DNA of 64,000 bases from Hawksworthiomyces lignivorus (taxonomy: Eukaryota > Ascomycota > Sordariomycetes > Ophiostomatales > Ophiostomataceae), in the NCBI GenBank assembly GCA_002917075.1, contig NTMA01000112.1, forward strand, positions 1 through 64,000, in the 5' to 3' direction. The notes beneath the pieces were generated by a model. The model had not been told where the DNA came from, made no database searches, and saw nothing but the letters and a program-made list of their open reading frames with translations. A program made the position numbers and the translations under genes. Below, piece after piece: positions 35,416 to 60,594 of the stretch; positions within the stretch are counted from its first letter, which is position 1, and every line of letters begins with the position of its first letter.

Positions 35416-36400
35416 TCACAGGCGTCCCCGGATCTTTGTCCACGACTGCTCAGTCGTCTCCAGCGACTTCTTCTCCTCATCCGAGAGCAAACCGGAGCCG
35501 TTCACGACACCTGGGATGGACGCAAACCCCTGGGACCGTATGTAGGCGAAGAATATCCACTGGCTGGCCTGCTCCTCGTCCATGGCTCCCCACAGATCGC
35601 GGTATTGTTCGATTGAGACGGTGACGACAGCGCTGGAGTCGGGCTCTGGGGCCTTGCCGCTGGTCCGGCCCCAGATCTTGAGAGCCGACTCCAGCGTCAG
35701 CTCTTCGACGATGCAGGTGACGTAGCTACCGGGCTCGAGGGTCCGGTTTCGGACGATGGCGTGCACGAACACTTCTGAATTGGCCTTGTGATCCGCCAAG
35801 GAGTGGAAGGGCGCCTCGGGTGGGGCGGGCCAGAACTGGACCCACTTCTTTGCGGACTCCTGTGGTTTCTCACGGTCAGCATTGAAGAGGAAACGTAGGC
35901 CGGGGGTTGACACTCACAAGATAGACAGGCTTGAAGATAGGATATATGATCAGGTTATCAGAGAAGATACCAAAGATGGCAAAAGTCGTCTTCTTGAAGA
36001 GGTCTGGCAGGTTGTGGCGGATGTACTGGTCCACCGAGCCTTGCCCTCAAAGTGCGGCACAACGGCCTTGCCGTCACTGAAATGGCTGGTTAAGGGCAAT
36101 GTTGCTGCCGTTCTGGAACTCGGTCTTAATGGCGGCGTCTTTGCCCTTAGCGAAGAAGGTCTCATAGTAGTCCGTGACCGCAAATACGACGTGGGCGCCT
36201 TCGAAAGCCTTGTCCAGACTGGCCTCGTCGCCAATGTCGGCTTTAGCAATTTCAACTCCTAGTTTCTTGAGCTCCTGGGCTCGTGAGCTGTTGGGATTAC
36301 GAGTGATGCCGCGAACGCGGTACTCGGGGTCCTTCAAGAAGGTGTTGATCACAGAGCCGCCCTGGCCACCCGTAGCACCGATCGCAACAATGAGCTTCAA
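35416..36400 (-). pseudogene. broken NmrA-like NAD(P)-binding protein
   Basis: The minus strand opens with KLIVAIGATGGQGGSVINTFLKD (GxxGxxG Rossmann motif), RVRGITRNP and the AHVVFAVTDYYE of NmrA/HSCARG proteins. The expected start codon reads TTG (36400), just after a poly-A tract. After GSNIAL (about 36095) a stretch of roughly 15-20 codons seems deleted; SDGKAVVPHFEGKA follows out of phase, and another shift at about 36026 leads to VDQYIRHNLPDLFKKTTFAIFG. An intron at about 35862-35919 joins PVYL to ESAKKWVQFW, and the rest (35416-35861) is open to the end. These proteins are redox sensors or regulators of GATA factors. The lost start, deletion and frameshift argue for a pseudogene. Confidence 0.78.
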
Positions 36401-37664
36401 CTTTTTTTTTTGCTTTTTTTGTTTCTAGATTAGACTGCGTTCGTAAAACTAAATCAAGGTAAGCTAGGGAGAGGTAATGCAAAGTACACGTAATGTCCAA
36501 ATTATAACGTCGTTGAAGTGTCTCCAAAGTAGTCTCACGCTAAAAGTTATACAGGTGAAATAAACTGCCTACATAGGCAGTACACAACTATCACAAACAC
36601 CATATACAAGCACATCTGATATTGCCATAAGCTGGTGTTAGTGACGGTATTTCCCATTGGCGCCATGTTCTCCACCGGTACAATCATGATCTTAACCGAA
36701 TATCTTGATGCCGAACACCAAGCCGACTACCGAAGGTGCCTTTCCGGTACATATCTTACACTCTTGAAAATGATTATTAATTTTTAACATTTATAACTTA
36801 TTTTAAGACCATAATCCGTATGTCTCACCATTTCTGTACGTATTTCCTCTTCTAGCATCGTAACCCAAATACTTTTGCCCTTGAAAAACCATAGGGGTTG
36901 TTGAAATGCCACCCAACTTTTGCTAAAATACCACGAAATAGGTAGTAGATTTAAGTAGGCTTACTGTATTTTTGAAAGTACTTGGCTCAAACGATAATTA
37001 TAATACAACTGACATCACTCTCACTATTATCACTTTAGGCGTCATCGGCCAGATTACCAGCAACCCAGACAGTGTGACAAGGTAAATACTTCGAGCAGTA
37101 GATACAGTCGACCACGAACCATGTAAGCAACAATAGAATACACTTACTCTCTGGTAAGATATCGTGTCCTAACATTCTACACGAGAAGGCATTGTCGTTG
37201 CAAGGAGTGTGATGATTGCTTACGTATGTCATAAACATAACTACTATTAAGAATATACCTCTGTGATCTTTTTATTTATTTTATTTAATTCGACCTACTA
37301 CCTATTTAGTAATGGGTCCTTTGCAAGAGATTTGTAGGAATTGAAATTGAATACGGAGTATACGAGAGCAAGTGACTGTACTGTATAAAAATCATTTTCA
37401 CTGTACACATTATACTGTAATTATTAATATTATGAGAGATTAGTCTTTAGTCGTAGCAAGGTTTTTCTTTTTCTTTTCTCTTTCCTTTTCAACAGTCTAC
37501 ATCACCTAAATTCAAGATATTTTGTCTTATGGATTTCATGGAATAAAGCTGTTTCTTATTTATACTTTATTAGGCCATTTTTTTCCTCTTTTATTCCTGC
37601 TCCTCTACATTACTCGACACGTTCATTTCATACTCTCCGAGCATCTGTGATAATTCGGGCGGTC
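36401..37664. other. AT-rich intergenic upstream of MATE gene
   Basis: Starts with a poly-A/T tract (36402-36420). A cysteine-containing minus-strand frame of 67 codons at 37035-37238 has no recognised domain or secretion signal. Pyrimidine-rich 37465-37495 and 37570-37600 could be part of the MATE promoter. Confidence 0.4.
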
Positions 37665-39191
37665 ATGGATTTTTGTGACTCACGGTTGTCCATAACAGCG
37701 TCCGAGGCGTCCAAAAGCGTTCACGATGTTGCACAGAATATTACTGAAAGCAGCCCTCTACTAAGGGGCTCGACCTCCTCTAGTCAAGCGAGAAATGATG
37801 GAACAGACGAGGAAACAAATGGAAAGATCATCGATCAAACAACCTACAAACGTGAAGCAATGTTACTCAGCCGCAATTCGATACCAATTATAATCACATT
37901 TCTCCTGCAGTACTCCTTAACAATGGCCAGCATTGTGGCCGTCGGACACACTGGTACGGCTGAGCTGGCTGCAGTGAGCTTAGCTTCCATGACGGCAGGT
38001 ATCACAGGTTATGCAGCCTGTGAAGGCCTAGCGACGTCACTCGATACTCTTTGCGCTCAAGCTTATGGGTCTGGTAACAAAGTCCTCGTGGGGCTGTATA
38101 CCCAACGTATGATTTTTTTTCTCGGGGTTATATGTATCCCAATTAGCATTTTGTGGCTTAGTGCCGGTCAAATTTTAAATTTGATCATCGAAGACGGCCA
38201 AGTTACGCAACTGGCTGGCTTGTATTTGAGTATTTTAGTCCCCGGTCTCCCCGGCTTTGCTGCATTCGAAGCCGGCAAACGATTTGTGCAGGCACAAGGC
38301 TTCTTCAACGTACCACTATATGTGCTCTTGGTTTGTGCTCCCACCAATGCCCTCCTAAACTGGGTGTGTGTATGGAAGTTGGAGTGGGGCTTTGTGGGTG
38401 CCCCCATTGCCGTGTCTTTCACTCAAATACTTCTCCCTTTGTTTCTAGTTGCGTTTGTGCGATACAACCGAGAAGCACAGTCTTGTTGGTGTGGGCTCAG
38501 CACAAAGGTGTTCGAAAATTGGGGACCTATGATCAAATTTGCAATTCCAGGGTTGATCATGCTGGAGGCCGAAGTCCTGGCATTCGAAATTCTGACCCTG
38601 GGGGCCTCGCGACTCGGAACGACGTACTTGGCATCCCAATCCGTTTTGGGCAATATCGCTGCTCTAATGTTCCAGATACCGCTTTCTGTCGCCATTGCAG
38701 GATCAACACGCGTTGCAAATCATATTGGCGCAGGCGCATTAGAATCTGCAAAAATTAGTACACGCGTTTCCTTCTCAGCTGCAGTTGTCATTGGTTTGGT
38801 GAACATGGTATCCCTTTTAGTATTCAGAAACTCGATCATTCGTTATTTTACAAACAACCCAGAAGTGATCTCTGTTGTTCGACAGGCTATTCCTGTGGTC
38901 ACAGCCTTCCAACTCTTCGATGCCGTCGGTGCAACATGCAATGGTGTGTTGCGGGGCCTGGGGCGTCAACGGCTGGGCGGGTATGTTCAGTTGTTTTGTT
39001 ATTACTTGTTTGGTTTACCTATTAGTATTTCTGTGGGATTTGGGTTGGGATACGGCTTAGCGGGTCTCTGGACTGGTGTAGCTGTCGCCTTAGCTCTGGT
39101 TGGTCTCGTGGAGGGTGTCTATATTTATATGGTTGATTGGGGAAAATGTGCGGATGAAGCAAGGGAGAGAGGTGAAGAGCATATTATTTAG
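37665..39191 (+). CDS. MATE family multidrug/metabolite exporter
   Basis: A single exon of 508 residues. The first in-frame ATG is at 37665 (the frame is open further upstream without an ATG). About 75 polar residues including ESSPLLRG (vacuole-type dileucine-like signal) precede twelve hydrophobic segments. Marks of the eukaryotic MATE family: ISRNSIPIIITFLLQYSL-like helix 1, VGHTGTAELAAVSLASM, GLATSLDTLCAQAYGSGN (the conserved CGQAxG region), LVPGLPGFAAFEAGKRFVQAQG, and in the second half PGLIMLEAEVLAFEILTLGA and AIAGSTRVANHIGAG, NGVLRGLGRQRLGGY. It exports organic cations or metabolites in exchange for protons. No introns and an isolated position; possibly an exporter linked to one of the clusters. 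Confidence 0.92.
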   Translation: MDFCDSRLSITASEASKSVHDVAQNITESSPLLRGSTSSSQARNDGTDEETNGKIIDQTTYKREAMLLSRNSIPIIITFLLQYSLTMASIVAVGHTGTAELAAVSLASMTAGITGYAACEGLATSLDTLCAQAYGSGNKVLVGLYTQRMIFFLGVICIPISILWLSAGQILNLIIEDGQVTQLAGLYLSILVPGLPGFAAFEAGKRFVQAQGFFNVPLYVLLVCAPTNALLNWVCVWKLEWGFVGAPIAVSFTQILLPLFLVAFVRYNREAQSCWCGLSTKVFENWGPMIKFAIPGLIMLEAEVLAFEILTLGASRLGTTYLASQSVLGNIAALMFQIPLSVAIAGSTRVANHIGAGALESAKISTRVSFSAAVVIGLVNMVSLLVFRNSIIRYFTNNPEVISVVRQAIPVVTAFQLFDAVGATCNGVLRGLGRQRLGGYVQLFCYYLFGLPISISVGFGLGYGLAGLWTGVAVALALVGLVEGVYIYMVDWGKCADEARERGEEHII

Positions 39192-41711: not shown

Positions 41712-41897
41712 CTTCAGAGTGTTGATAAAGTTAAATGAATTACAGTGTATTTCCTTCAAGATCTGCGAGTATTGGCATGTAGCATCATTCTACGAGCCAG
41801 AGCGAGGATAAGATGCAATGGCCCTCGTATTTGAACCCGCAATGTTATTCGAAGTTTTCACTCGGTAAAGGATTCTGAGCTAGGCGGTCTGTGATAA

Positions 41898-41907
41898 CGG
41901 ATATCCG
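41898..41907. promoter_or_regulatory. CGG-N4-CCG palindrome, copy 1
   Basis: CGGATATCCG, 187 bp upstream of the transporter start and 578 bp upstream of the amidase start. It is one of only three exact copies I find in 64 kb. Inverted CGG triplets are the usual target of dimeric Zn2Cys6 regulators. Confidence 0.65.
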
Positions 41908-42150
41908 CGACACAATGTGAATAGCAAAGAGCCGATCATGGAGCAATCGTGATATATGGGCCATTCAGAGATCAGTGTTGCATGTGCGAGATAGTATCGA
42001 TAGAGCTGTCCGGCATTCTGGTATCTGGACGCCCGTCTTTCGCCAAATCAACGAGTATATGTGATAGACCAAGTGTATCTCGTCTGTCAAAAGCAGATCG
42101 AATGTTTTATCAGTTATATCCGCCAATTGCACCAACTATTTGTTACCTAT

Positions 42151-42161
42151 CGGAATGTCCG
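42151..42161. promoter_or_regulatory. CGG-N5-CCG site, copy 1
   Basis: CGGAATGTCCG, 324 bp upstream of the amidase start; matches CGGAATATCCG at 50317 except for one base. Confidence 0.55.
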
Positions 42162-42484
42162 AGGCGGATGTAAATAGAAGCTAAGAGCTTGGTCGTCTAA
42201 TTAGAGGCCCACAGCAGCGGTCAAATGCTTTTGATAAGCTTGTTAATGGCTAATGGCACCTCAACGGCGTGAGCCGTGATGGCACCCACAGTAACCAGGC
42301 GATAAGATATGTCTTCAAGAACAGCACCACTCCCAATAAAAAGAAGCAAAAGACCATAGCGCCTCAGCATATCAGTCAGGAGATGTGAGCATATCTTCAA
42401 TAATTCTTGAATATCTTTTTTGCCTTTCAAAGTTTTCCTAGTACTCTCTGTCTACCATAACCCACCAGGAGAAGTAGTCTCACC

Positions 42485-44183
42485 ATGTCTGCTACGCTTG
42501 CGCCGGAAACCATCTCGGAGCGCAACCCCATCTCCGAGAAGGATGTAATCGATACACTCTCATCGCTAAACTTGACAGCCAAGCCACAGGACATCGCCAG
42601 CTACACATCGCTGCTGACAGGAATCTGGGAGATGTGGGATACGATTGATCAGATGGATGACTACATTCCAGAGGTCGATGAAACACGGTTCCCCCGCAAG
42701 AATGTACATAGGCCCGAGGCAGCCGATAACATCTATAACGCATGGGCGTGGTGCTGTGACATCCGTGACACCTCAGACAAGAGTAAAGATGGACTGCTGG
42801 CCGGAAAGACGATCAATGTGAAAGACAACATCGCCGTCAAGGGCGTCCCATGCTTGTTGGGAACGGATGTTATCTCAAGCTATGTTCCCAATACGGATGC
42901 CACAATGGTGACGCGTTTGCTGGAGGCTGGCGCCATCGTGCACGGTAAGGGAGTATGCGAAAATATGAGCATGTGGGGCGTGTCGGTGTCCGCAGCTACG
43001 GGACCCCTGGACAACGTGTGGGCTAAAGGCTTCTCCGCCGGTGGCTCTTCTTCAGGTACAGCGGTTCTAGTGGCAAAAAACGTGTCGTGGGGCGGCATCG
43101 GCGGTGACCAGGGAGGCTCAATCCGCATCCCATCGGCGGTCAACGGTCTTGTGGGTCTGAAGCCGACGTATGGTCTAGTCCCCTATACAGGCATCGCCTC
43201 GCTCGAGCCTATCATCGACCACACCGGCCCAATAACGCGCACAGTACTTGATAACGCTCTGCTTCTGCAGGCAGTGGCCGGTGTTGATGGCATCGACGAC
43301 CGCCAGCAGGCCGGCTGCCCGTTCCCCGGGGCCGTCCCAGACTACCCGGCTCTGGCACAGACAACCGCCGGCGGTATCAAGGGTCTGCGCGTCGGTATCT
43401 TGCAGGAGGGCCTTGACCAGCCTTTACATGATCCTCGGATAAGTGCGCTCGTCGTCAAAGCTGCACAAGCCTTTACCAAGCTTGGCTGCGTGGTCGAGGA
43501 GGTTAGCGTACCCATGCACAAGCTAGCCCCGACTCTGTGGACTGCGCCAGGGCGACTGTCAGTATACGCGTCGCTGATGGCGCACAACTGTGGGCGTCGC
43601 GTGCTCTGTATGAACGATCTGACCGACAAGGTGCTCCCGCTCACTCAGGATAAATTTGATAAGATGTTTGCTGGCCACAGCAATAGTGTTGTTAACGGTA
43701 AATGGGGGTGGGACCACTTGCCTCCCTCGCTACTTGGCAAAGCCACCAACTTGATCCGCAAATTGCGCGACAAATATTACGCAGCCCTTGACCAATATGA
43801 TGTTCTCGTTATGCCGACGATGCCCATGCTCGCACAACGGCTACCGTCGACAGAGTCGGACCTAATCTCGTTCATGAAAAATTCGGCTGGCATCTCGCTG
43901 AACACGTCGGCTTTTAACCTTGTGAGCCACATACTAGCCCAGAACCCTAGAGGTCTTTCGCTTTCTCCCTGGCCCCTTGAAATTCTCTAATATTTTCTTT
44001 TCTCTGATACAGACTGGTCTACCTGCTCTAACCATACCCGTCGGCTTCCTGCCGTCGCTCATAGAGCCGCACCCGAAGCTGCCTGTCGGTATGATGATAG
44101 TGGCTAAATTCTACCAAGAACCGACCATATATCGCGTAGCCTACGCCTGGGAGCAGGCGTTTGATTGGAAAACATTTGAGTAG
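42485..44183 (+). CDS. amidase-signature family amidase (cluster copy 1)
   Basis: Two exons 42485-43921 and 44013-44183; intron 43922-44012 (91 bp, GTGAGC...ACAG); 535 residues. The Ser-cisSer-Lys triad is visible: K113 in INVKDNIAVKGVP, S188 in AGGSSSGTA, S212 in GGDQGGSIRIPSAVNGLVGLKPTYG. The acyl end groups of such fungal enzymes are varied (acetamide, aryl amides, nitrile-derived amides). The N-terminal 90 residues form the helical cap usual in the acetamidase-like branch; the last exon supplies TGLPALTIPVGF. No signal peptide, so cytosolic. It shares a promoter with the Dal5-type permease and lies on the other side of a transposon from a second amidase with the same promoter sites. Confidence 0.93.
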
Positions 44184-44650
44184 TATAACACAGATGGTTT
44201 AATGGTATTAGAAAGAGAACGAAGTAAAGCACTGTAGTTTAAAAATAAAATAAAAACCAGAAAAGACAAAAACCAGGTGCAGTTATGAATGACCACTTCA
44301 TTTATTAGCAAGGTTCCTAATTTCTCTCCTTGATCTCAGGTACGTTAAAATATAAGATAAATTTACAACTCCCCTTAATTTCCCACGGCCAAAAAGAACA
44401 CATCGAGATTAACAATAACAAAAACATGGCGTTGGATAATAACTGAGGAGTGGCATATTATTGAAATGTAAGATGGTTCCCTTATAGAAAGCACGCGACA
44501 AGCTCCCATCAAGCTGGCTGAGAAAGAGCTTGGAGCAGATTCTGACATAAAGAGTAGTTCCAACGCTATATTCTATCGTTGTAAAGTCTTAGCAAAGTCT
44601 ACGGCACTAAGTGGGAACAGCTGTTCCTTATCATAAAAGGTGTACCGGTG
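44184..44650. other. intergenic between amidase and MULE
   Basis: AT-rich 3' flank of the amidase. No gene recognised. Confidence 0.45.
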
Positions 44651-44659
44651 GTGTCCGGA

Positions 44660-44790
44660 GGGAGTTCATACACGCGCACCACCAAATTGATGCACGCGCA
44701 CCACCAAATTGATGCACGCGCACCACCCCCTGTACAATACTGATTTCTGATTGGTTGATTGCTCAAGTAAGCCAAATTGGGAGCAATTCG
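44660..44790 (+). repeat. left terminal inverted repeat of MULE
   Basis: Starts GGGAGTTCATACACGCGC, three 22-bp subunits, then CCCCTGTACAATACTG and on to AAATTGGGAGCAATTCG. Pairs with 47403-47521. Confidence 0.9.
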
Positions 44791-44869
44791 CCTGAATTAA
44801 AGGCATCACCAAATTTGACAACAAAAAAAACCTAAATCCACACCACTATGAAAAGCTACAACTAATTGC

Positions 44870-47329
44870 CATACAAATTTGCCTGCTCCCTGTAGTACTC
44901 TTCCATTTCCTCTAGGATTTCAGTCTGTCTGGCAGCAATACGTCTGCCTTGATTTCTCTGCTCTGCCACCCTCTCATCCAGGCGAAAATCGTCTTCGTTT
45001 TCCCAGTCGATATACGCAATAATTTGTTCCATTGTCCAGTCTTTTCGCTTATTCTCTACAGTAATATAGTAAGGTTTGTGATGAAGAAAATCAGCGTAAT
45101 TTGCTTGACTGTACTACAAAGGGAGCCCCATAGTTTTTCTATACTCTTCGTTGGTCTTCAAGTCTTCTCTAGATTGTTGTTCAAACCAACAATCTCTCGT
45201 TTGTATATATCTGTTATATATATTAATTGGGTGAGTATAAGATAAACTAGTAAACCAATTTGTCTCTCGAGTACTCGTTTCTGTAGTTATTTGAGCCTCT
45301 GCCTTTGTCGTTGTTCTCGTCTTAGTTGTTATTTCCACGTCAAGTAGACGTACTCGTTTAGCGAACTCTTCGTCTGGCTCAGAAATTGTCGAGATTGACC
45401 GCCAAGTAGTCGGCGTAAAAGTTGAATCTTCATTAAATCTCATCGTATTTACGTCATTGGAGAGTAAATTGGCGGTAGTAAGTGAGTTAGATGTGGCAAT
45501 AGTTGGGTGAGACGAAGATCGTAACAATGAGTATGTCTTGATATTATGTCTTGTTTGACGACATTTGTTACAACGAGGTCCTTTTTTTTCAACTGTTTTA
45601 TGAACATAAGGCTCACGTCTAGTACTAGATTGTGATATACGTAAGTTCCTAACTTCTACTCGTAAATCAGGTTCAAGAAAAATTCGTAATTCTGTAGTAT
45701 TGTTAAGAAGACGTCATCGAGGATGAAAGTCATTTAATGTAAGACTTTCTTTTCGTTGTAATACAAGTTGTATTCGGTGAACGTATGGAAGTCTCATTGA
45801 ACGTGAAAACACTTTAGTACAGTTTTATAAACCTTTTTCGTTTTCAAGAAGTAATCTTTGTTTTTCGACTTTTCGTAATGTTTTAAAAGATACGATACTA
45901 CGTATAGAGTTATAAAGACGTTTATATAAATGAATCGGATATGAGGTTTTTTATCGTCTTTATTCATAAATCAAATCTTTAACTTGATTTGTGACAACAT
46001 TGGTGATAGTTTTCAAAGTCTTAAATAAATGAGTTTGAGACTTAATTATATAACTTTTTAATAAAACATAAATGTCTTTGATGTGTGAAGTGGTGATATT
46101 GTCAAAATGAGAATATTGATTAATTTATGTTTTAATCAACTTTTTTTTAAACTTCTTTAATCAAGTATCCTTAATATAACTAATCAAAGTTGGGTGTTTT
46201 GTTGAATATTGTACTTTAAAAGTTTCTAAGTAGTCTTTATAAGCTGTTTCGGTAGATGATTATATAATGAAATACCAAAATTTGTAAAATGAATCCCATT
46301 GTTCTTTTTCTTAAAAGGCCGATTTGTAATGACGCAATATTGTTTTATTTATGTGTCAAGATATAAAAGAGAGGCTGCGGAGGGAAATACAGTGGTGATA
46401 ACATTCATACAAGTCTCGTAACAGTCTATTAATATAACTAAAGAAAGATTGATATTATATTTTGAATATATACACTCTTTCAACTACATCAAGGTTTAAA
46501 TATAATCAGACTCAACCTCGTCATTTAAAAAGACAAAAACAACACAAAAAGACCATTGACAAACATCAACTACAATTATATTAAACAATAACAAGTTATA
46601 TTTGTTGGTTTTATAAGTATAGTCTAATAAAATAATATCTAGATAAGTTTGAAGAAGAGGTATAGAGTCAACATGAAAAAAGAAGACAAAAAAAATTTTA
46701 TTATTCGAATCAACGTCAAGACTCGTTTCAAATCCTCTCTCTTTAAAGCTATTCACAAAAACATATATTAAACCAAAACTTCCATATTCTTGTCGTCTAA
46801 TTATTACAATTTGGTTATAGATATTCTACATAGGAGCTTCTAGATTGTATTTGTGTTATAAATACGTTTTAATAGCTTTTGGTTTTGTATTTATATAAAC
46901 CAATTCAGAAATAGTCTCAATTTATTCAATTGAAAAACCACGATTGTTAGGATGTATAAAGGCGTGATCACTTGGCTGGTGGTTGTGAAATAAAGTTGTA
47001 GGCTCTGGCCTATACCTCACCACCCACGTATTATGGTCTGTCTCCTTTGTCAAAACCGAAAAACGGCAGCCACACTTGCGAGACGTAGTATTACGCCGCC
47101 GATTTTCAGTTCCAATTCGAGTAGAGCCGAATCGGTCGCAGGCATAATACACAACTCGTCTGCCGCACCGTACTTTTGACTTTTCGGTCACAAATGCGTA
47201 ACCGCGCTGCTTCGCGAAATCGCTGATTGCTCGGTAGAGGGCCTCGCGAGACTCGTATTCGGCTTCAGGAGGGGGGTCGTTGAGCGATATAGAGGGAGGC
47301 AGGGAGGGTAGGGAGAGTACGGGGGCCAT
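44870..47329 (-). pseudogene. degenerate MULE transposase
   Basis: The N-terminal 135 codons (47329-46922) are open and of normal composition: FAKQRGYAFVTEKSKVR...CDRFGS...RKCGCRFSV...HNHQPSDH, the FAR1/WRKY-GCM1-like zinc DNA-binding domain of fungal Hop-type transposases. The rest is AT-rich with many stops, but the catalytic core is still readable at about 46496-46756 (LDIILLDYTYKTNKYNLLLFNI, carrying the first aspartate of the DDE triad, and FVFLNDEVESDYI). A zinc-knuckle-like CNKC...H remnant is near 45560, and the C-terminal serine/threonine-rich part lies at 45114-45527. The base changes fit RIP. There is no functional transposase here. Confidence 0.88.
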
Positions 47330-47402
47330 TTTCGTATAGTCTGGCGTAATTCGTGGTGATTTCTGTGTTGTTGGTGATAGTCGTCAGTATTCAGACGAAT
47401 TG

Positions 47403-47521
47403 CCTCCTATTTCGAATTGCTCCCAATTTGGCTTACTTGAGCAATCAACCAATCAGAAATCAGTATTGTACAGGGGGTGGTGCGCGTGCATCAATTTGGT
47501 GGTGCGCGTGTATGAACTCCC
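47403..47521 (-). repeat. right terminal inverted repeat of MULE
   Basis: Reverse complement of the left repeat with one 22-bp subunit fewer. It differs from the left repeat after GAGCAATTCG. Confidence 0.9.
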
Positions 47522-47530
47522 GTGTCCGGA

Positions 47531-48219
47531 GAGTCCGACGTAATCACATTGATAACTATTCGTAAAATAGGTAAGCGAAGCAGCTCAATTGATCTTACAT
47601 TGTACCAGATAAAATATCAACTTACGACTGCGCCAGTGACGTCCTACTCAACAGGTAAACATGAAAAAACAGCTCTTTCTAATTTACTACTAAGGCTTGG
47701 AATTAGCAGAATTCACTATATAGCTGAGAATATTTTTTTTTGTTTGTGATGGGCCTCTCTGTCGTTACATCGACATCCTCCTCCTAGCTTGAAGACGATG
47801 TAATTAAAATTTTATGGAGCAGGTCAGAGTGTGCGCCCGAGGAGAGGATGTGCGTTTACTCACTCCAGAGGAAAGTTCCCTAGGGTATAGGTTAAAAAGT
47901 GTGTTGTGAAAAATCAAATAGTAAGCACTCGGCAGCATCATCGAGCGATAATCGATACCCATGTAGAATAGCATTGGCCCTGATAAAGTTTTTTACGCAG
48001 TTCCGGGCAAGCATTTTCTATTTATTCATGCTGGTTAGTTAGAAATCAGCAATCTAATTGAAAAGGGCATATTTTTCACATATGCTGAGTGAAGGCTTTT
48101 AAAAGCGAAAAGACTCAAAGTTTAGTGCATAACCAGAGCATAATGCCATACCAAAGTACAGGAAACAAAGCAGTAACATAATACCTTCGTATATATCCAA
48201 CTACGCTTTGCGCGTTCCT
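47531..48219. other. intergenic between MULE and second amidase
   Basis: No gene recognised. A frame at 47522-47749 begins within the transposon target duplication and has no domain. Confidence 0.45.
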
Positions 48220-50065
48220 TTATTCTCCTTCTTTGAGTAGTTCCTCCAGAATCTCTGAGATTGCCAGCACCTTTTCTTCTTCCCATCGCTTAGCGACAAT
48301 CTGGATTACGACAGGCATTCCATCGTATTCTTCAAAGTGTTTGGCGTAGTTCTCGCGGACCCATCGGTCGCGGTCGCACGCCGGTGCTGGAATGGAGTTA
48401 CCAAAGCCATCAACGGTGTCGCTCTGGTCACGCAGGTCAGTCGCACATGCGGCGGTACTCACGGGCAGTGTACAGGCAGTAAAATCTAGGACATTGGCCG
48501 TTGCACAATAGCCCTTGTACCGCACGCGACCGAACTCGCCGTGGACGTGCGCTACCGACGGGTTGACGGCCGTGATGTACGCATCAATGGAATCCCCGGA
48601 CTTGGTCGTCGTTGCGGTATTCGCCCACGCGTGCAGCACGCTAGCCTGGTATTCCATGCGCTCCATGGCAAAGGCCCAGCTCTCGTTGAGCGTCATGGGC
48701 TGCGGTGGCAGTGAGCCTGGCCCAGAGGGTGGAAGTAACGGTAGCTTGGGCTCGCCGGACCGCTCCCGCGTGTGCTGTACATCCAAATCGGCGTCAGAAG
48801 TGCAGACGTCTGAGCCAAAGCGGTCGGCACGCACTTGATCGAGCTTGAACATGGGTACAATGTCATGCCCAGTTGCACGCAGCTTAGCTTCGGCATTGCG
48901 CAGGGCACGTCGAATAGGAGGCTGTGGCAGCACGTAACCGTCATGATGCATAAAGGCGAGGCGTAGGGGCCGGCTGCGGACAGATGAAGCCACATCTTCG
49001 CGCCATGGAATAGGCGGGCTCTTGGGGTCGACGAGCCATGGCTGCGCGTCGACAATGGCCTTGACGAACAGCTGTAGAGATTTGGTAGAACGTGCCATGG
49101 GGCCGACCACCGAGGGGATGATTTCTTGGCCTTCCATACTATTAAGCACGCCGTGATAGGGGATACGCGACGACGAAGGCCGTAGGCTGTGCAAGCCGTT
49201 GTATGACGAGGGTGTGCGGATCGAGCCCCCTAAGTCTGATCCCACGCCTAACGGGCTCCCGCGGAAGCCGATCAGTGCACCTTCACCGCCGCTAGAGCCT
49301 CCACACGTAAATATACGATTGTATGGGTTACTGGCTCGACCGATGATGCTGCAGAGAATGAATGTAAGCCATCTCTTTTCTTTTATGAAGAAAGTGGCTA
49401 GAGAACTTTCTTTTCCAAAATCGATGCCGCACTTACTTGTTCACACTCTCTCCCCACATACAGCCAACACTCAGAGTGGTCTTGCAGAACGGAATAGCCC
49501 CTGAATTCTTCAGGATCCTAACTAGAAGACAATCTTTCTCGTCCCACACGCCCAAATTGGCAACAAAACCACATGTCGTCTCTGTGCCCTTGATGCGACA
49601 TTGGTCTTTGACCGAGACTGGCACTCCGTGCAGCGGTCCTACAAGCCTCCCTGTCTTTTCAAATGTATTGTCTAGAGCCTGTGCCCGTTCTCGTGCTTGC
49701 AGATACACAAAGGCCAAGCAGCAGTGTAGCAACTGGTGTGCGATCACAGCGCGATGCGTAAAAGCATCAAGCACCTCGACGGCAGTGTAAGTTCTAGCAG
49801 CAATGGCTGGAGGGATCGCCTCGGCCTTAAGTGCCGTGATTGCCATTTCTTTGGCGCTTAGGAACTTCTCGGGGATATCTATGACGCGCGCTGGATTGCT
49901 CTCTGAAAAGCGAGGCAGGTCGAGCACATCAGCGGCATCGATATTTGAGAAGTGTAGCGTGGAGTGTATGAACTGCTGAGGCACCTCGGAAAGAATGCGC
50001 TTCTGCTTATCGAGTACACGCTCCTTCCATGTGGCCTTGGATGGGGCCGCTCTTAAGGAACCCAT
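48220..50065 (-). CDS. amidase-signature family amidase (cluster copy 2)
   Basis: Exons 50065-49437 and 49348-48220; intron 49349-49436 (88 bp); 585 residues. The ATG at 50065 (MGSLRAAPSKATWKER) is chosen because the frame upstream has no ATG. Triad: K153 in GVPVSVKDQCRIKG, S227 in CGGSSGGEGAL, S251 in GSDLGGSIRTPSSYNGLHSL. It resembles the acetamidase/general amidase branch that begins with WKERVLDKQKRILSEVP. It is not a recent duplicate of the 42-44 kb amidase (low identity), so the two enzymes probably act on different amides or successive steps. The promoter (50066-50591) carries both the CGG-N4-CCG and CGG-N5-CCG sites 216 and 252 bp upstream. Confidence 0.93.
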
Positions 50066-50280
50066 TCTCTTATGAATTAATAAATGTTCACATGTGTCGA
50101 TCAGTGAAGGGCTATCAATGTCGAGCACTAGGGTTTCCAGATACCAAGTTCTTCTGACTTGTTATAAAATTATAGACCGTCTAAATACCAGCCTAGTTCC
50201 CTGTCTGCTTGAAGACTGCTAGGTGGACATTATAACTACGCTCTGACTCGGTTTCAGATGCTGCATCGGGGCGATGCTGT

Positions 50281-50290
50281 CGGATATCCG
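50281..50290. promoter_or_regulatory. CGG-N4-CCG palindrome, copy 2
   Basis: CGGATATCCG, 216 bp upstream of the amidase ATG. Confidence 0.65.
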
Positions 50291-50309
50291 AAGCGTTATT
50301 TAACCAAGG

Positions 50310-50327
50310 CGGATGTCGGAATATCCG
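50310..50327. promoter_or_regulatory. overlapping CGG-N4-CGG and CGG-N5-CCG site, copy 2
   Basis: CGGATGTCGG followed in overlap by CGGAATATCCG. The outer GGCGGAT and ATCCGCC form an inverted repeat with an 8-nt centre. Confidence 0.6.
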
Positions 50328-50591
50328 CCACCTTGTCAAATGGACCACCCTTTCATCTAAGATAAAAGGTAGTAGTGTTGTTTATGCTAACTATATATCT
50401 ATCTATTATCTATCGTCATTCTTCTTCATCGATATAAGTCTAAATGAATATAAAATTTGTAATGCAAGACAAATATATAAAATACAAGCGACAACAAGGC
50501 CCTAATCAAATTATCCCTCTATTAACCATAGCTAAGAATTAATATCCTTGGTAAGGCATAAAATCAGCGACTTTATCTACATGACTCCGTA

Positions 50592-52497
50592 TCACCCGTT
50601 CATATCACTTTTTTCCTCCGTCGTTGAACTTGTAGCCATCTGTTCATGGCTGCTAGATGCTTCCCCGTTACTCTTATATGCTTCATCCTTTTGATTAGCC
50701 ATCACTACTTCTTCTTCGTCCACCACTATCATGCTTATCGAGGAATCGGCGTCTTCCGATATTGTCAGGCCCCGGTCTTTAATGAAGAACGTGCCGAGAA
50801 GACAAATTCCGATCAAGGGTACTTGCAGTATGAAAACAGCCCGACTTGCAGCCATGTATGCGTCCAAGATGATAGAACTATCCGCTGCCGGCAGATTGGA
50901 TGGTAGTGCGTATGTCTGGCTGGCAAGATAAGAATATTGAGGAGGGAGGTGGTTCTTTAGGACGGGTTGCAGTACAGCGGCAGACGCGGCGAGGCCGCAC
51001 GCACCGCCAGCACTTCGAAAGAAATTGCGATTGGAGATGATCACAGCACGCAGAGGCTTGGGGGAATGTGCCTGGAGCGCGATAAGTGTTGGCTGGAAGA
51101 TGCAGCCAACGCCAATGCCGGTCAGAAAGAGTGGTATGACGAGAACACCAGGGCTCGTGTGTCGCCCAAAGAGCAAGGTGAGGCCAGCACCGCTGAGGAA
51201 AAAGCGCTGATGTGAGATTGAATGACTGATAATACAAGAGAATACAGCAGCTAAACGAGAAAGTACGTACATATTCCAAGAGCCGAAGCCAAGCCAGATG
51301 ATTTCGATATATCGTTTCCGGCGGGAAATATACTGGCCTGAGAAGATGGAGCAGACCGTCTGCATAGCCATGAGACTCGAAGTAATGGAAGCTGACATGA
51401 CCGCACTATACTGGTGTGCATTCTGCAGGTATAACGGTACATAATACAGAGACGACTGATAGACAGCACCGAATAGGAAATTCTGGGCCAGCATCACCAC
51501 GATGACGGGGTTGCGGAAGAGTTTCACTAGATCTATGTATAAGTCATAGAAAAGGGATTTCAAAGATTAAAATGAGGATAGAAGAACAGACATGGCATCA
51601 TAGGCAACCTGGCCACCCGCATTTCCACGACTACAAAAACGACAATAAACAAACTGCCAATGATGAGCATAGAGATTACCATTGGTGAATTCCAAGGATA
51701 ATATGCACCGCCTATATCACATTAATATTAGTTTTGCATCGCGTAGAGGAATTTTATAGGTAAATAGAACAATTCGCACCTCCAGAGATAGGAATCAGAA
51801 GGAAGATAACTGCAAGCGATGATGTCAGAGTACCAAAAATATCAATATTCTGTATGCCTTCTTTCAAGCTCAATGTGGAGGGAATTGATGGAAGCAATAA
51901 AAAGGACGATATCCAGGAAACTGCTGCTAGAGGGGACAGCATGTAAAAAAAAGCTCTCCATGTCGCCCGTTCCACAAAAGTTGCTGCAAGGAAAGGGCCT
52001 ATGACATTGCCCAAGCCGACCATGGCACCGATAATTCCTTGGTACTTGCCCCGCTGCTCCAACGTGACCAGATCGGAAACAATAATCATAGACAAGTTCG
52101 TGATGCCGCCTGTTGCAACGCCAGCCATGCCACGAAAAATGTAGAACATGGCCGCATTCCGCGACAGCCCGCAGAGAAGATCCGCTAAAACAAGCAGACA
52201 GATGGCAGCCAAGAACACGACCTTGCGTCCAAAGATATCTGAGAGTCGTCCATAGAGCATCTGAAAGGTGGTGTTGGCAATCAGAGATGACGTGCCGGCC
52301 CATGAGATACTGTCCTGTGCGCTCAACTCTGTGCCGATGGCTGGAATCGCTGTGCTGACTCCATTCTGGTCGAGCAGGCACGTCATGAGAGCTACCGACA
52401 AAACTAAAAACACGGCTATCAGCTTTTGCGTCGGTACAATGTTGGTCTGGTCGAAGAGAGCATGCTCAGCTCGGGCTTGGACGTCGCTGTGGCGCAT
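50592..52497 (-). CDS. MFS transporter, 14-helix DHA2/toxin-efflux type
   Basis: Exons 52497-51780, 51711-51592, 51532-51267 and 51206-50592; introns of 68, 59 and 60 bp; 572 residues. Features: LMTCLLDQNGVSTAIPAIGTELSAQDSISW (the LDxTIVNVALP-like start of DHA2 proteins), MLYGRLSDIFGRKVVFLAA (motif A), FRGMAGVATGGITNLSMIIVSDLV, IIGAMVGLGNVIGPFLAATF (motif C), SGGGAYYPWNSP, NPVIVVMLAQNFLFGAVYQSSLYYVPLYLQ, and a charged C-terminal tail of about 60 residues. The last intron is frame-neutral and its exact edge is the least certain. It is divergent from the Zn2Cys6 regulator with 530 bp in between. It may export a toxic substrate or product handled by the cluster. Confidence 0.88.
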
Positions 52498-52813
52498 CGC
52501 TACCTTGCTAATGAACTATGCAGGCGACCTCAGGTTTGAGAGCTTTGTGGCATCGTAGCACACATGTATATGCGGAGGAAAGGCGTCAGAAGACTGTATG
52601 CACATGCCGATTTAAATCGAGGGGAGGAAAAAAAAATCCACATGATAACGAAGGTGGTCCGGAGGAAGGCGTACCAACTCGAGCCATTGGAATGTATGAT
52701 GGCGAATATAGCATTCCCATACAACTAAGCATTTCAGTGTAACGAAGGGATCTCTGATGCCAAACAAAGAGCTATCTAGCATTGCCTCCGATGTCGATAA
52801 GGCCTCCGAATAC

Positions 52814-52829
52814 TGGAATATCCGATCGG
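52814..52829. promoter_or_regulatory. GGAATATCCG plus everted CCGATCGG site, copy 3
   Basis: TGGAATATCCG shares ten bases with the site at 50318-50327, followed in overlap by CCGATCGG. Confidence 0.5.
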
Positions 52830-52906
52830 ACCAACTACACAAGGGACTCGCGCTAAGCTAGGAGCGAAAACAATTGGTCATCAAATTGGACAGATAGCCT
52901 ATCTTT

Positions 52907-52922
52907 TATCGGATATCCGATA
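52907..52922. promoter_or_regulatory. CGG-N4-CCG palindrome, copy 3 (16-bp perfect palindrome)
   Basis: TATCGGATATCCGATA is self-complementary over all 16 bases; its core CGGATATCCG (52910-52919) equals the copies at 41898 and 50281. Confidence 0.7.
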
Positions 52923-53027
52923 TACCACTCAAACAACCGAGCCTAATACGGAGTACATATCAAGCACATATCAATGGCAAGAAGCGTCGCATGTCCGCTG
53001 GTCAACGCGGTGACTTCGGTTTGAGCC

Positions 53028-55720
53028 ATGCAGCGAATAAGTGCAATACCGGCGGCATCTCCGAATGGGGAGACCAGCAATAACAATAGAAGCAGAGGCT
53101 CCCGGAAGCGAGGCCGCACAGCCTGCACGCGATGCAAGACTCGTAAGCAGAAGGTAATGTCATACTAATGACGATAGATGAGTCTTTACGCACACATCTC
53201 AACTAATCTTCTCGGCCTCGCCAGTGCGATGAGCAATGGCCAATATGCTCAAATTGCCGGATAGTGGGAGCTGTATGCGACAAGAAATCAGTCGCTAACC
53301 ACGGCCCATCAGCAAAGTAAGAACAAGAAAATGCAATTGTGATCCACCATTTTGAGACATATGCTTGAGAAGGAAAAGCACATCTTTGTAGATGTCTATG
53401 GCTTACAGAAAGACTCTCTCACAGTTATACGCGTGCGCTGGAGGAGCGCGTGGCCTACCTTGAGATTGAGCTGGCCAAATCTCACAATCAGCGGAACGAG
53501 ACCGTCAGCCCCGGTAGTGCTGTTGTCGGATCAACTTCCCCCTCGGCGCCAACGCTGCAGAATGGAAACAATGCGATTAACGAGGTAGTTACAATGGTCC
53601 CTCTAGGTAATCTCGAGGCACCAGCATTTGTCGGTCCCTCGTCTGGATTGTCTCTGGCACTGAATCTGGGCGAGATGGTGCAGGCCACTATCTGGAACAA
53701 AGCTGTTACGACGGCTGTCCAGAACATTGTCAACGTACAGGGGGGGAGCGGTCCGTTAGGGTGCGAGGCGGCGGCAGGCGTGAAAATCGCATCAGCAGCG
53801 GCCACAACAGCGACTACAACAGCATCAACAACAACCTCAATCGGCGGCAGCAGCAGTGGAAGTGGCCGTGATAGATCTTCGACAAATGCAAGTCCAGTCC
53901 GTGGGATCTCACTGGAGGAGCTGATGACCAATTCGGCTAAAGAGCCGCCAAATGATACAGTCGGCCGGCGCATGATCAACACATATCTATGCCAGCTACA
54001 CCTGCGCTATCCGTTTATTGACCGAGACGAGATATGGGATCTCCACGCCAAGCGGTTCCATCTGACAACTTTGGCCCCGGCGGAGCTGGCGCGCACGCAA
54101 CGGTTTGGCGTTTTTAAGCTCTACATGATCTACGCTATCGGCGCTACGTTAATTCAGCTCACAGACAAAAGTACCAATTTGTCTTCTGAGGTATGAAAGA
54201 AGTACGAGAAAAATATTTCTTGTTACCAAAAAGGAAGCTAACAGAACATCGATTAGAGCCTGTACCTTACGGCCCTCCAGCATGTCGCGGCAGCTAGAGA
54301 GCCTCGGACAATTCAGAATATTGAGGCTATGATCCTCTTAGCGTTATATCACCTCCGCGAGTCGTCTTGTCACGGCATGTGGTACATGGTTGGGTTAGCT
54401 ATGCGCACGTGCATTGACCTGGGCATGCACCGCAAAGCTTACGAAGCGGGCTTGTCCCCCGATATCATACGTCGACGCCGGTTGCTCTTCTGGACGGCCT
54501 ATTCGCTGGACAGAACCATTGCCATATCTCTTGGCCGCCCTCTCAGCATCACAGACCGGCAGATCGACGTAGAGCTCCCCGATGAAGTATCATCACCAGC
54601 CACTGCTGCTGCAGATGTTTCTATTGCTTCGCGATTAACATCGGTACCCCTGTCTACATCAGCGGGTGGCACTCTAGGGTCTCCTACAGCGGCAGCTACT
54701 AGAACCATCGCCCCTGATTCTGCCGGCGAAGAGAACGACAACCACGAAGGCAATCTCTTTATAAATTTGTGTCGGCTAAAGCGTATCGAGTCGCAAATAC
54801 ATCTGTCGATCTATCGTGTCGACAAGCCACTGGAGGTGCTATGTCACAAAATCGACCGCTTCTACAACGAACTGGAAGAATGGAAGTCGTTCCTGCCTGA
54901 ACACTTTCGCGAAGGCAGCTCAGAAGAAACGAATTTCCTCACTTTGCACTATAACCGCGTTCTACGCCTGCTCATTCAGCCCTTCCTGTCCATTCTTCCG
55001 CTCTCTAATCCTTACTACGGTCTTTGTTTGCGCGCGGCGGGCAACATCTGCCGCGCCCATAAGCAGCTGCACCAGACACCGATGTATGCGCACAGCTTTA
55101 TATCTGTGCAAACTGTGTTTATGGCCGGTATCACACTTCTCTACGGGCTATGGACACAGCCTGCGGCTGTGTGGTCCGCCGCACTCGCGGACGATATCCG
55201 TGCTTGCTCTCTTGTGTTATTCGTCATGGGCGAGCGGGCCTCGTGGGTGCGTAAATTTAGGGATACATTTGAGATGCTGATCTCGGCCGCCATGGAAAAA
55301 TTGGAAAACAACGCTAGCGGAGACAATGGACACAAGAATGATGCAGCTATCCAAGGTCTGTCGCCCTGTCTAGATGCGACAGGGCGGTCTAGACGCGAAT
55401 CACTTAGAGAAGGATGGAGTGATGAATACAGTGGAAATAGAGAAGGAGGCGATATTAGCAGGAGCGGTGGAAGAGCAGCCTCGTGGGCGGGGATGCAGAA
55501 CCAAGATCCAAACCAAGACCAAGGTCAGAGACAGGGATACGCCACAGAGTCTCTAGGACAAGAGTTTAAAGCTTGTGGTATGGGTATACATACGGCGAGT
55601 AGCGAAAACGAAGAAGCTTGGAGGATGGCTGAGGAACTAGCTAACTGGATCGACCGAGACGACGGAGTGCCTGTGTGGATGCCGGATGTTGACATGCTAC
55701 CAAGCCTATGGAGCGGCTGA
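53028..55720 (+). CDS. Zn(II)2Cys6 transcription factor, amidase-cluster regulator candidate
   Basis: Exons 53028-53153, 53225-53316, 53425-54190 and 54257-55720; introns of 71, 108 and 66 bp; 815 residues. The zinc cluster C33, C36, C43, C50, C53, C60 (TACTRCKTRKQKCD...CSNC...C) is split by the first intron after RKQK, a common position. A coiled coil YTRALEERVAYLEIELAK follows, then a serine/threonine/alanine-rich linker, and the fungal_trans (MHR) domain from about residue 220: YPFIDRDEIWDLH, AMILLALYHLRESSCHGMWYMVGLAMRTCIDLGMHRK, RRRLLFWTAYSLDRTIAISLGRP. The C-terminal 100 residues are low-complexity with NQDPNQDQGQRQ. It is divergent from the MFS exporter; the palindrome before its own start makes it the natural binder of the CGGATATCCG sites. 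Confidence 0.92.
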
Positions 55721-55939
55721 GTCTCGTAGCTTTAAGAAGCTTGTTCAAACTCTAGATTGACTGTCTGTATACACTAGTGTTCCAGGGCCTCAAGACATAG
55801 ACTTGCATAAAAAGAGGATGTTACAGCGATCATATAAATTATTGATAGCCCTCTCAAAGCGAAGAAGCCTCTTAATATCTAGTTGTGTGGGCTTTCACTA
55901 CTCTCCAGACCAATAAAAGTACTTTCGGACATTTTCAAT

Positions 55940-56112
55940 TCACTGGTTGGCCAGTCTGCTGCGCATCGGTTTTTGCCTTACCAAGACTACGAGTCGAAAC
56001 AGTACGTGAACGATTTGCTTGATTCACATAAGAATTTTCTCATTCATGCAGAGCGGGTTGGAGCTAGTATTCTGACCTCGACTATAGACCTGTTAAATTA
56101 TCCATGCTATAT
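55940..56112 (+). pseudogene. cytochrome P450 fragment
   Basis: A short open stretch encodes SAAHRFLPYQDYESKQYVNDLLDSHKNFLIHAERV, which resembles the segment after helix C in fungal P450s (xYxxLESKQxxxDLL). No heme-binding region or other part is found on either side; the frame passes directly into LINE sequence at about 56113. It is too short to be active and may be the remains of a gene cut by the LINE or an older deletion. Confidence 0.55.
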
Positions 56113-57236
56113 ATTCCGGCTACCGGCGAAGAGCGAGCTCCTCCACTTCTGTCGAGCACGACAGGCCCCTACCGAAGCTCTCCGGTTGAACGCCGACACC
56201 GTCTTACAACCACTTACAGAGGCCCGATTCCTCGGCATCTGGCTCGACAGAAAGTTAACCTTCGCCGCACACTACAAACAAGTCACCAAGAAACTTAAAA
56301 CACAAAACCTAGCCCTCACGAGGCTTACAGGCAAGACGTGGGGATGTACCCTCCCTTGGGCACGTACCATCTTCACGACAGCGATCCGGAGCCTGATCGC
56401 CTTCGGCGCGCCAGTGTACCATACCCCTACGCCGGAGGGCGGGACGGCCAGAGGGCTGGCCAAACGGTTCGACAAAAGATATAACGACTACCTCCGTACC
56501 GTCACCGGCGCATTCGACTCTACATCGCTTTCTTTATTATATACGGAGACAGGACTCATATAACTAGATCTATACCTCAACTAACGACAGGTCACACTCT
56601 TAAATCGAAAGGACTACCGGGCTCAATCCCGGGTCATAGACTACGCCATCACGACCACACTCGACAGTCGTCGTCGTCGTATCACGACAGACCCTTGTAC
56701 TAAATACGACGATATTCTAACCTCCTAGAACAAAGACCGTACATTAGCCCAATGACAAGAACGTTGACATCGACTTACCGAACCCCGACAAAGGTCTGTC
56801 AATCAATCTCTCCGGTGGACCGGCAAAGATGTGGTCAAAGCCCACCGACATCTCTCTAAAGCCGAAAACAGTCTTCTGACACAAGTACGAACGGGCCACA
56901 TCGGTCTGGCGACGTACCTCCACCGTATACACAAAAACCGGGACTCCCCCCTATACGCCTGCGGCGCGGCGGAGGAGACCCCGGAGCACGTAATACTGCA
57001 CTGCCCCGATACGACAGGAAAACCTCCGGTATGGCCCCAGACTCCGGCTGACCTGAATCACCGCCTGAATACGGGAGGGCCGACGGCCCGTCCCGTACTG
57101 CGGTGGCTCAAACGGAGCGGGCGCATACCAGCGTACAACTTGGCAGGCCAACTCGAGGAGGATACGTCACAGACGTAGCCCTACCCACTATTAATGTAAT
57201 CTCCTTTGTTTAACTACTACTACTACTATTACTACT
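56113..57236 (+). mobile_element. 5'-truncated Tad-like LINE (non-LTR retrotransposon)
   Basis: Contains the end of a reverse transcriptase (LNADTVLQPLTEARFLGIWLDRKLTFAAHYKQVTKKLKTQ, then RTIFTTAIRSLIAFGAPVYH), decayed between 56564 and 56830, and the C-terminal zinc region (56831-57178: AENSLLTQVRTGHIGLATYLHRIH...CGAAEETPEHVILHCP). The 3' end is a (TAC)n tail at 57212-57236, as expected for Tad/I-type LINEs. Most of the element including ORF1 is missing. Stops at TAG/TAA within 56564-56830 mean no function. Confidence 0.85.
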
Positions 57237-57902: not shown

Positions 57903-59837
57903 TTAAAACCAGGTATCAAACGACGTTTGTGCTATGCTATCCTCTTGATGTAGGTCCCACGACGAGGAAAAAATATCAGACAGCCATGGTTCGTTGGAGA
58001 GATCCATAATGAAGCCTCCTTGCGAAGAGCACTCTCCACTACCGCCTACTAGAGACACCGGTGTCGTCCCCAGTGTATTGGTCGGGTCAACAGCTTGTAT
58101 AGGCTGCTTTTCAGTGGCCGAGGACGCATTGGCCGATGCCGTCTCTGCCGCTAGGAGAGCTTTGATAGAATGAAATAAGACGGATGATTTAAAGAACAGC
58201 CCATGGCGAGGACCATCAGCATCTTTCATACCCAGTTCGACTGGAACACTTTCGATAAACTCGCGAGCACGGTCAATAATCGCAAACACATCGGCTCGTC
58301 GCTTTATGTCGTCTACATCCCAACTAGGCTCATCAAGGGTAGTAAGACGGAAAAGCACGACTAGGCAATGTAGCAGCTGAGAAAAGTGATCCACGCTGAC
58401 GCCGACTAAATCACGCACTTGCATATCGAAGAACAGGGAGAACCAACGTTCTACACTTCTCAAAAGAGCGTCAAGTTCTTGTAATCTTTGATACTGAACG
58501 TACTCAATCTGGTTGTCACCTGCAGCTTGAGATGCCTTTGTCATGTTCAAAAATGATTCCCGGATAGAGAGCTCTGTTGAATAGAGATAGAATTGCATCG
58601 TTCCTGCCAATCACCAAAGTTAGTTTGTGTTAGTATTTGAAACACAGCCTGTGTGCCATTTGGAAGCTTAACTGTGTGATGCTAGATTGTTTTCCGCTTC
58701 TTCTTGCATATCTCTCAGCTGGCGGAACATAGCATTTCGCAAGGCCATTGGCAGCCCTCTCGGCCCACCCCTGCCCCAAGGTTCATCTTGTGCACAAGTC
58801 AGTTGATTCATGATACTTTGGCATTTGATCTCGGCCACCAGCAAGCTATCAAGATGTGTTTCTTTTCTCTGTCCCAGGATCCGGATACACTCGTCCATGT
58901 AAGGCGTCCATCGTAGAGGCTCTGTCTTTCTGTAAGCGATCCAAGTACTGGGAGATCGGAGTTAGCTGCGAATTACATGGGAGAGTAAGAAGAGAACGTA
59001 CGATGAGGTGAGATGAAAGAGTGCAAGAAGAACGCGGCGTTCTTCTAGAGTCCGCAGGCGTTGACCTGATCTTTTGAAACCCGGACCCTGGCTGAACGCT
59101 TTGAATTTAGTCTGTCGTACCGCTTCTTGCGTTGATATATTTTGATGCAGATCTAGATCAAAAGAAATGGAGATAGCCAGTTGGGATAAAGTAGTCATAA
59201 ATGGCCTATCTTTTTTGAAATAGTGTGACCAAGATGCGAAGCAGATGATGCCACAAAGCAAATCCAGATCGGCGCAATGCTCTATCACAATACGTCTTGC
59301 TATTATTTGCCAGATGGTCTCCTCCATGGCAAATTGCTGAGGAATTCTGATAGTCGTCAAGCACATGATCACAAGCCAAAGGAAGGGTTTCTGTTTCCGA
59401 AGATTCGGCGCAGTTGTCGCTTGGGGTATATAGACAAAGGGAAATATAGAGAGAAAGGCCTCGCGAAAAATGGCCAGCTGCTCATTAGCCTGACGGTCAG
59501 GAATGTTGCCATGAACTGAAACGTCGCTGAAGATGAGTGATTCCGACGAGGTTAACGATGACAATTCTGACACTGCACTTGCAGATCGCTCTGGCGAAGG
59601 AGGACGAAAAATTTGAACGATACTAGCAGTCGTATCAATGGCGACTTCAGGGTGACGTACGAGGGTGGGGTTCATGCATCGGTCAGAGTCGAAGAGTATG
59701 CTGGGGCTAGGTGTGGCACTGTCATCCTTCGATGGAGATGCTGCCGACTGTACCGGATCTTGTGCTTGGTCTGTAGCGGCTTTTGCCTGAGAGCGTAGAA
59801 GAGTCACAAGGTCTTCAATTTTTTCTTCTAGTCTTGT

Positions 59838-59868
<31 letters not shown>

Positions 59869-60263: not shown

Positions 60264-60594
60264 CTTGTCGGCGTGTTGGGATGCGAATTGGTAGTCTGGA
60301 GTGGATGGAATGAGTTGGGTTCGGATTTCCGCGGCATTTAGTTGCAGATATTATTACATAAGCAGTTCCACAGCTGGTGGAGGCATCGCGATATAATCCA
60401 AAGGCGAAATGTGTGAGCTCTAGAACGAAGAACCGGCAGATTTGGACGCAGCCTTTCCCCTCCTGCCCCTCTTCCTATTTTTCTTAAAGAGCAGCTTCTT
60501 CGCTCTCGCGTTGATAATTTTCTCTTCATACTTCCATTCGCTCTCACTTCTCTTATCTTTCTAACCTTCACTAAACTCCATGTTAATCTTACAA
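60264..60594. other. promoter region of the 57.9-60.3 kb regulator
   Basis: Purine/pyrimidine-biased (CTTCTTCGCTCTCGC, CTTCTCTTATCTTTC at 60490-60560). No gene recognised. Confidence 0.4.

Follow-up and report, generated by a model that had tools for sequence, protein, structure and literature searches.

A CGG-N4-CCG palindrome as a candidate operator of the Zn2Cys6 regulator encoded in a two-amidase gene cluster of Hawksworthiomyces lignivorus

Does a short palindrome repeated in the promoters of an amidase gene cluster mark the operator of the regulator encoded in that cluster? The question is raised by a 64,000-nucleotide stretch of Hawksworthiomyces lignivorus (GenBank assembly GCA_002917075.1, 43.7 Mb in 191 contigs), hereafter the window, which comprises bases 1–64,000 of contig NTMA01000112.1 (C16 in our numbering). 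The cluster consists of genes for an MFS permease (T1), two amidases (A1 and the acetamidase-like A2), an MFS exporter (E) and a Zn2Cys6 regulator (R); all were spliced by hand, and all five reading frames are open (Table 1). A sequence-only reading had singled out the palindrome CGGATATCCG, together with CGG-N5-CCG-like partner sites, as the mark of an amide-use gene set controlled by R. Our analysis supports this regulator-plus-operator gene set, the regulon itself being predicted from sequence. We consider it likely that the cluster is a pathway-specific amide-catabolism regulon on which R acts through the palindrome, for which TCGGANNTCCGA, or CGG-N4-CCG, is the better notation.

A pattern count bore out the three copies of CGGATATCCG, at 41898, 50281 and 52910, where 0.05 were expected in the window; none of 100 dinucleotide shuffles contained at least three. 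The partner sites (YGGAATRTCCG) also number three (42151, 50317 and 52814; 0.06 expected). As the sequence-only reading had placed them, all six sites are intergenic under the hand-made gene models (41712–42484, 50066–50591 and 52498–53027), and since these regions lie between genes, three promoters can serve the five genes. The third palindrome, which had been put 106 bp before the start of the regulator, instead ends 108 bp before the ATG of R. Two of the three palindromes, those of the A2 and E/R promoters, have the 12-mer form TCGGATATCCGA; the copy at 41898 is flanked by A and C, without the outer T and A, and is therefore not a full 12-mer. Genome-wide, 28 CGGATATCCG sites were counted (19 for the backwards control), and the C16 trio was the sole group with at least two sites inside 20 kb, the next closest pair being 29 kb apart on C127. 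When 28 sites were placed randomly, a triple within 11,013 bp arose in 15 of 20,000 runs, and an exact 10-mer common to all three shuffled window promoters was found in 1 of 150 trials. The genome-wide count thus did not show a motif that is common and not enriched here, and the claim that the trio is far from chance held.

The partner sites formed the weaker half of the earlier claim: their positions were right, but an 11-mer matching as well as this second site appeared in 24 of 150 shuffles of the three window promoters, and the N5 site is therefore not significant alone. With 58 matches in the genome against 70 for the control, YGGAATRTCCG is not enriched genome-wide either. On these two grounds it was rejected as an independent motif and retained as a likely variant. 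Given the first motif as prior, the N5 sites are notable: exactly three window sites lie within one mismatch of CGGAATATCCG, all in cluster promoters, compared to one in 159,202 bp at 20 other loci, which had themselves been picked for containing CGGATATCCG.

The genome was also searched with R, A1, A2 and a linked hydrolase, and R-family regulators were found near amidases at several loci. On C163, an R paralog accompanies an A1-type amidase (48–49%) and a PuuE-allantoinase-like hydrolase; on C161, a more distant regulator accompanies an A1-type amidase (49%), a PEP-mutase family protein and an SMP-30 family protein. The palindrome recurs in variant form in both sister clusters, as TCGGACGTCCGA 333 bp upstream of the C163 amidase, in the divergent amidase/hydrolase promoter, and as TCGGAATTCCGA 240 bp upstream of the C161 amidase. 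Read by eye, the zinc clusters of R and the C163 regulator agree at 24 of 30 residues, and those of the C161 and C19 regulators are clearly unlike that of R. In a tree of 28 chosen sequences, built on R residues 241–720, R was placed as the sister of three Sporothrix proteins, and a Niveomyces protein was sister to the C163 regulator (100/100 for each). The source is an ascomycete close in kind to Sporothrix and Niveomyces.

Across the genome TCGGANNTCCGA has 29 sites against 45 for its control and is therefore not generally enriched; four of the 29 stand in promoters of the C16, C163 and C161 clusters. With the window sites excluded, 2 of 27 fall in the 3,927 bp of C163/C161 promoters (0.0024 expected, Poisson 3e-06); because C163 was already known when the TCGGANNTCCGA form was settled on, the C161 site alone counts as strictly independent. 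Only the N4 spacing of the CGG triplets is enriched in these promoters. Six of the seven promoters first examined held seven CGG-N4-CCG sites, and every other spacing from 0 to 30 occurred at most twice; overall there are eight sites, in seven of the eight promoter regions of the three clusters. Once the promoter of the C161 amidase is included, the C163 and C161 promoters contain five N4 sites where other spacings average 0.6 (P 0.0004); the window promoters, all of which hold one, contain three, the average of other spacings being 0.27 (P 0.003). In neither set does another spacing from 0 to 30 occur more than twice. Among everted and direct CGG repeats in the same promoters, no spacing exceeded 3. 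The operator of Ppr1 and UaY is CGG-N6-CCG, inverted CGG triplets with TCGG/CCGA flanks. Only one CGG-N6-CCG was present in the three window promoters and none in the C163/C161 promoters examined; with N4 dominant, the candidate operator is therefore not of the Ppr1/UaY N6 type.

The palindrome in the cluster promoters and its match in two sister clusters together make it most likely that R activates the genes by way of it. The five-gene cluster probably digests amides. In the circuit that we infer, each of the three promoters would be bound by a dimer of R at the inverted repeat TCGGA-NN-TCCGA (CGG-N4-CCG), and this would, with an inducer present, raise transcription of T1, A1, A2, E and R itself, the nearby N5 variants serving as possible secondary sites. 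T1 would import an amide, from which A1 and A2 would liberate ammonia and an acid, and E may expel a toxic substrate or product.

A second layer of control is suggested by GATA sites. The density of HGATAR in the three window promoters is 11.6, 11.4 and 11.3 per kb, about four times the background of 2.7 per kb (standard deviation 2.5, 95th percentile 6.6) in 55 tiles outside open reading frames at the 20 other loci. The promoters contain 21 such sites vs. about 9 in shuffles, and 0 of 300 shuffles had as many. The window cluster may accordingly be under nitrogen control, with an AreA/NIT2-type GATA factor acting on top of R.

Of the other explanations, the one that survives best keeps this circuit and gives it another purpose: the cluster would detoxify a plant or microbial lactam or amide instead of serving nitrogen nutrition. 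The TRI12-like exporter fits such a role. A parallel is offered by the FVEG_08287-08296 stretch of Fusarium verticillioides, which we take to be FDB1. According to the part of PMC10512309 available, that stretch is induced by benzoxazolinone and includes two amidases, a transporter and a fungal-specific regulator, co-induced there and similar in make-up to the window cluster; it also lists a metallo-beta-lactamase and an FAD enzyme, neither of which is among the five genes here. Pfam gave no metallo-beta-lactamase among those five, the only part of the window that was searched for one. The GATA density of the three promoters and the MFS permease on the first promoter both point, indirectly, to nutrition. 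We regard detoxification as unlikely, if a serious contender.

Another zinc-cluster protein could instead own the palindrome, either a general factor or the product of the regulator-like gene at ~57.9–60.3 kb, with R merely a target. At that neighbour gene, CGGATTTCCG precedes the ATG by 58 bp, the same motif stands beside the unlike zinc clusters of the R and C161 regulators, and the R linker is similar to that of Ppr1. On both C163 and C161, however, the palindrome again stands next to an R-family regulator (paralogs of the neighbour gene were not searched for there), and we judge this explanation improbable. That a repeated 10-mer was simply chosen post hoc in AT-rich promoters is very improbable: the motif was picked after inspection and shuffled promoters can produce such matches (1 and 24 of 150 for the first and second site), but the genome-wide clustering of CGGATATCCG (15 of 20,000) and the recurrence in the C163 and C161 promoters argue against it.

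Action of R through CGG-N4-CCG also has to be set against several observations that weigh against it, the shuffles of the second site among them. The R linker is close to that of Ppr1 in length, and the Ppr1 site has the wider N6 spacing; the C161 promoters carry the motif despite a zinc cluster unlike that of R; and the C163 regulator's own promoter is the sole one of the eight regions without N4. Seven promoter regions at distant loci (amidase and regulator on C22, amidase/hydrolase and regulator on C145, amidase and regulator on C180, and regulator on C19) have a single CGG-N4-CCG between them, at the C145 regulator, while other spacings average 1.3, and the genome list places no TCGGANNTCCGA in them. 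The density of GATA sites is uneven over paralogous promoters, from 0 to 13.1 per kb (C163 amidase 13.1 and regulator 3.5; C161 regulator 8.5, middle 0 and amidase 6.7; C22 amidase 4.5; C145 9.1). Finally, the A2 relative of Sporothrix bragantina and the R relative of Xylariaceae sp. FL0016 are each on a different contig from the linked genes described below.

How far the palindrome reaches beyond the three clusters was assessed in two ways. A single rule for all regulator-amidase loci was rejected, as C22, C145, C180 and C19 are without the palindrome. C145 has TCGG-N6-CCGA in its amidase/hydrolase promoter (L055, 592–603), the form of the UaY/Ppr1 sites. PuuE-allantoinase/cyclic-imidase-like genes are neighbours of amidases and R-family regulators on both C163 (L049, 2795–3929) and C145 (L055), and Colletotrichum gene models named chitin deacetylase 1 merge a PuuE-like domain with an R-family regulator. 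A match to a distant regulator is found close to one further TCGGANNTCCGA site, C111:90473. For a wider CGGATATCCG regulon, 20 of the 25 other sites were searched with the five cluster proteins (~4 kb either side, E 1e-4): there was no match to A1, A2 or R at these 20 loci, one to T1 at L019, with the site inside the matched span, and one to E at L025. Such a regulon was rejected for lack of A1, A2 and R matches. Twelve of the 20 sites are located in frames of at least 200 aa, four in frames of 101–147 aa and four have no frame of at least 100 aa.

In other fungi, linkage was read indirectly, from locus tags and apparent location on the same contig among the matches listed (best 120). Among these, Sporothrix provides the closest R relatives (at 66% over 19% and at 55% over 97% of the query). 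S. bragantina has an R relative (006134) and an A1 relative (006135) apparently on the same contig. Coleophoma crateriformis has A1 (03676) and A2 (03673) relatives that apparently share a contig, and so has Xylariaceae sp. FL0016. R and A2 relatives apparently share a contig in S. eucalyptigena and on a 13,825-base fungal contig, and a C163-type regulator and an amidase do so in Niveomyces insectorum. In Penicillium canariense, a single gene model joins a relative of E (58.6%) to one of R; for S. stenoceras, the matches listed include an R relative and no amidase. These arrangements suggest that amidase/regulator linkage extends to other fungi. A wider proposal, offered tentatively as possible but rather doubtful, is that the R family, widespread in ascomycetes, is devoted to amide catabolism and recognises CGG-N4-CCG, an unusually tight inverted repeat, and that sister amidase/imidase clusters are cross-regulated as a dispersed network, the cross-regulation being proposed because the zinc clusters of R and the C163 regulator are alike. 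Of the R-family relatives among the matches listed, most are called just "C6" or "fungal-specific" transcription factor.

Regulons of the Zn2Cys6 type with CGG repeats are well known and a conventional form of fungal control. To the Ppr1/UaY class R is linked by its Zn2Cys6 and Fungal_trans domains, by Ppr1 (1pyi) as best solved relative and by the inverted CGG with TCGG/CCGA flanks; it differs in the N4 spacing (N6 in that class) and in the linked genes, here amidases and transporters. The amdS/AmdR system of Aspergillus nidulans is echoed in the A2 relatives named acetamidase, whereas the window cluster links one regulator to two unlike amidases. In the nicotinate pathway of A. nidulans, the amide hydrolase HxnN acts after the cyclic imidase HxnM according to the available part of PMC9304392, and the C163 sister cluster, pairing an amidase with a PuuE-like hydrolase, resembles the HxnR regulon in this respect. 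HxnR, however, is described in the accessible text of PMC5746545 as a Cys2/His2 zinc-finger regulator, whereas R is of the Zn2Cys6 type and the five genes of the window cluster include no such hydrolase. Among the openly licensed papers listed by the searches, none had a title pointing to a fungal regulator site of CGG-N4-CCG form apart from the AtrR paper, the available part of which gives the site as CGG(N)12CCG, and none dealt with the window cluster. Within that literature, the operator and the pathway for the R family seem new. The fungal Zn2Cys6 regulators of this large family, themselves unnamed, thereby gain a concrete candidate operator and a likely pathway, one palindrome having been followed from an amidase cluster into two sister clusters of a single genome. 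Such amidase clusters are relevant to nitrogen scavenging, nitrile/amide biocatalysis and plant amide breakdown.

Table 1. Cluster genes, palindromes and variant sites in the window.
Feature	Position	Strand	Remarks
T1, MFS permease gene, 5 exons, 488 aa	39938..41711	-	Pfam MFS_1 3e-26; one intron modelled GC-AG
CGGATATCCG	41898..41907	.	promoter common to T1 and A1; 187 bp from T1 ATG
CGGAATGTCCG, N5 variant site	42151..42161	+	323 bp upstream of A1
A1, amidase gene, 2 exons, 535 aa, PRK07235/Rhodococcus-type	42485..44183	+	Pfam Amidase 7.4e-78
A2, acetamidase-like gene, 2 exons, 585 aa	48220..50065	-	Pfam Amidase 2e-92
TCGGATATCCGA	50280..50291	.	214-215 bp upstream of A2
CGGAATATCCG, N5 variant site	50317..50327	+	A2 promoter
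E, MFS exporter gene, TRI12 match, 4 exons, 566 aa	50592..52497	-	
TGGAATATCCG, N5 variant site	52814..52824	+	E/R promoter
TCGGATATCCGA	52909..52920	.	promoter common to E and R
R, Zn2Cys6 regulator gene, 815 aa	53028..55720	+	exons 53028-53153, 53225-53316, 53425-54190, 54257-55720
Second zinc-cluster regulator-like gene	~57.9-60.3 kb (57903-60331 with site)	-	ATG 60263; start read by eye
CGGATTTCCG	60322..60331	.	58 bp before ATG of second regulator-like gene

Zn_clus and Fungal_trans both scored over the Pfam cut-off in an 819-aa version of R, which was also used for the relative search, the genome search and the pairwise comparisons; it has five linker residues where the final 815-aa model, following the linker of the orthologs, has one. 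For the DNA-binding part of R (first 111 residues), the match to the Ppr1 structure 1pyi was at 6e-07. The best solved relative of A1 is the amidase 3a1k (1.6e-92), and its NF005565 match was under that model's cut-off; the solved relatives of A2 are FAAH-type, and T1 had no solved relative at E 0.001. Relatives of A1 among the matches listed include basidiomycete yeasts (Saitozyma, Kwoniella, Naematelia and Tremella, 58–67%). Paralogs of A1 in its own genome reach 49% at best, below these yeast relatives, a patchy spread that may reflect transfer between fungi.

To the left of the cluster are an NmrA-like gene and a MATE transporter (36074–39191). At the second regulator-like gene, CGGATTTCCG is the only CGG-Nk-CCG (k 0–30) in 60000–61500, and Pfam gave no match in the two pieces scanned. 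CGGANNTCCG occurs seven times in the window, so the CGGATTTCCG site could be due to chance, and membership of this gene in the cluster is a weak possibility. Just past R, open frames at 55883–57178 resemble a non-LTR (long terminal repeat) retrotransposon tail by eye; a Pfam scan of both frames gave no match. Between A1 and A2, a transposon-like insert with an AT-rich interior occupies 44651–47530. It has perfect terminal inverted repeats of 46 nt (44660–44705 and 47476–47521), is flanked on both sides by the 9-bp duplication GTGTCCGGA (read by eye) and contains a weak FAR1 match under the Pfam cut-off; by these features it looks like a Mutator-type element.

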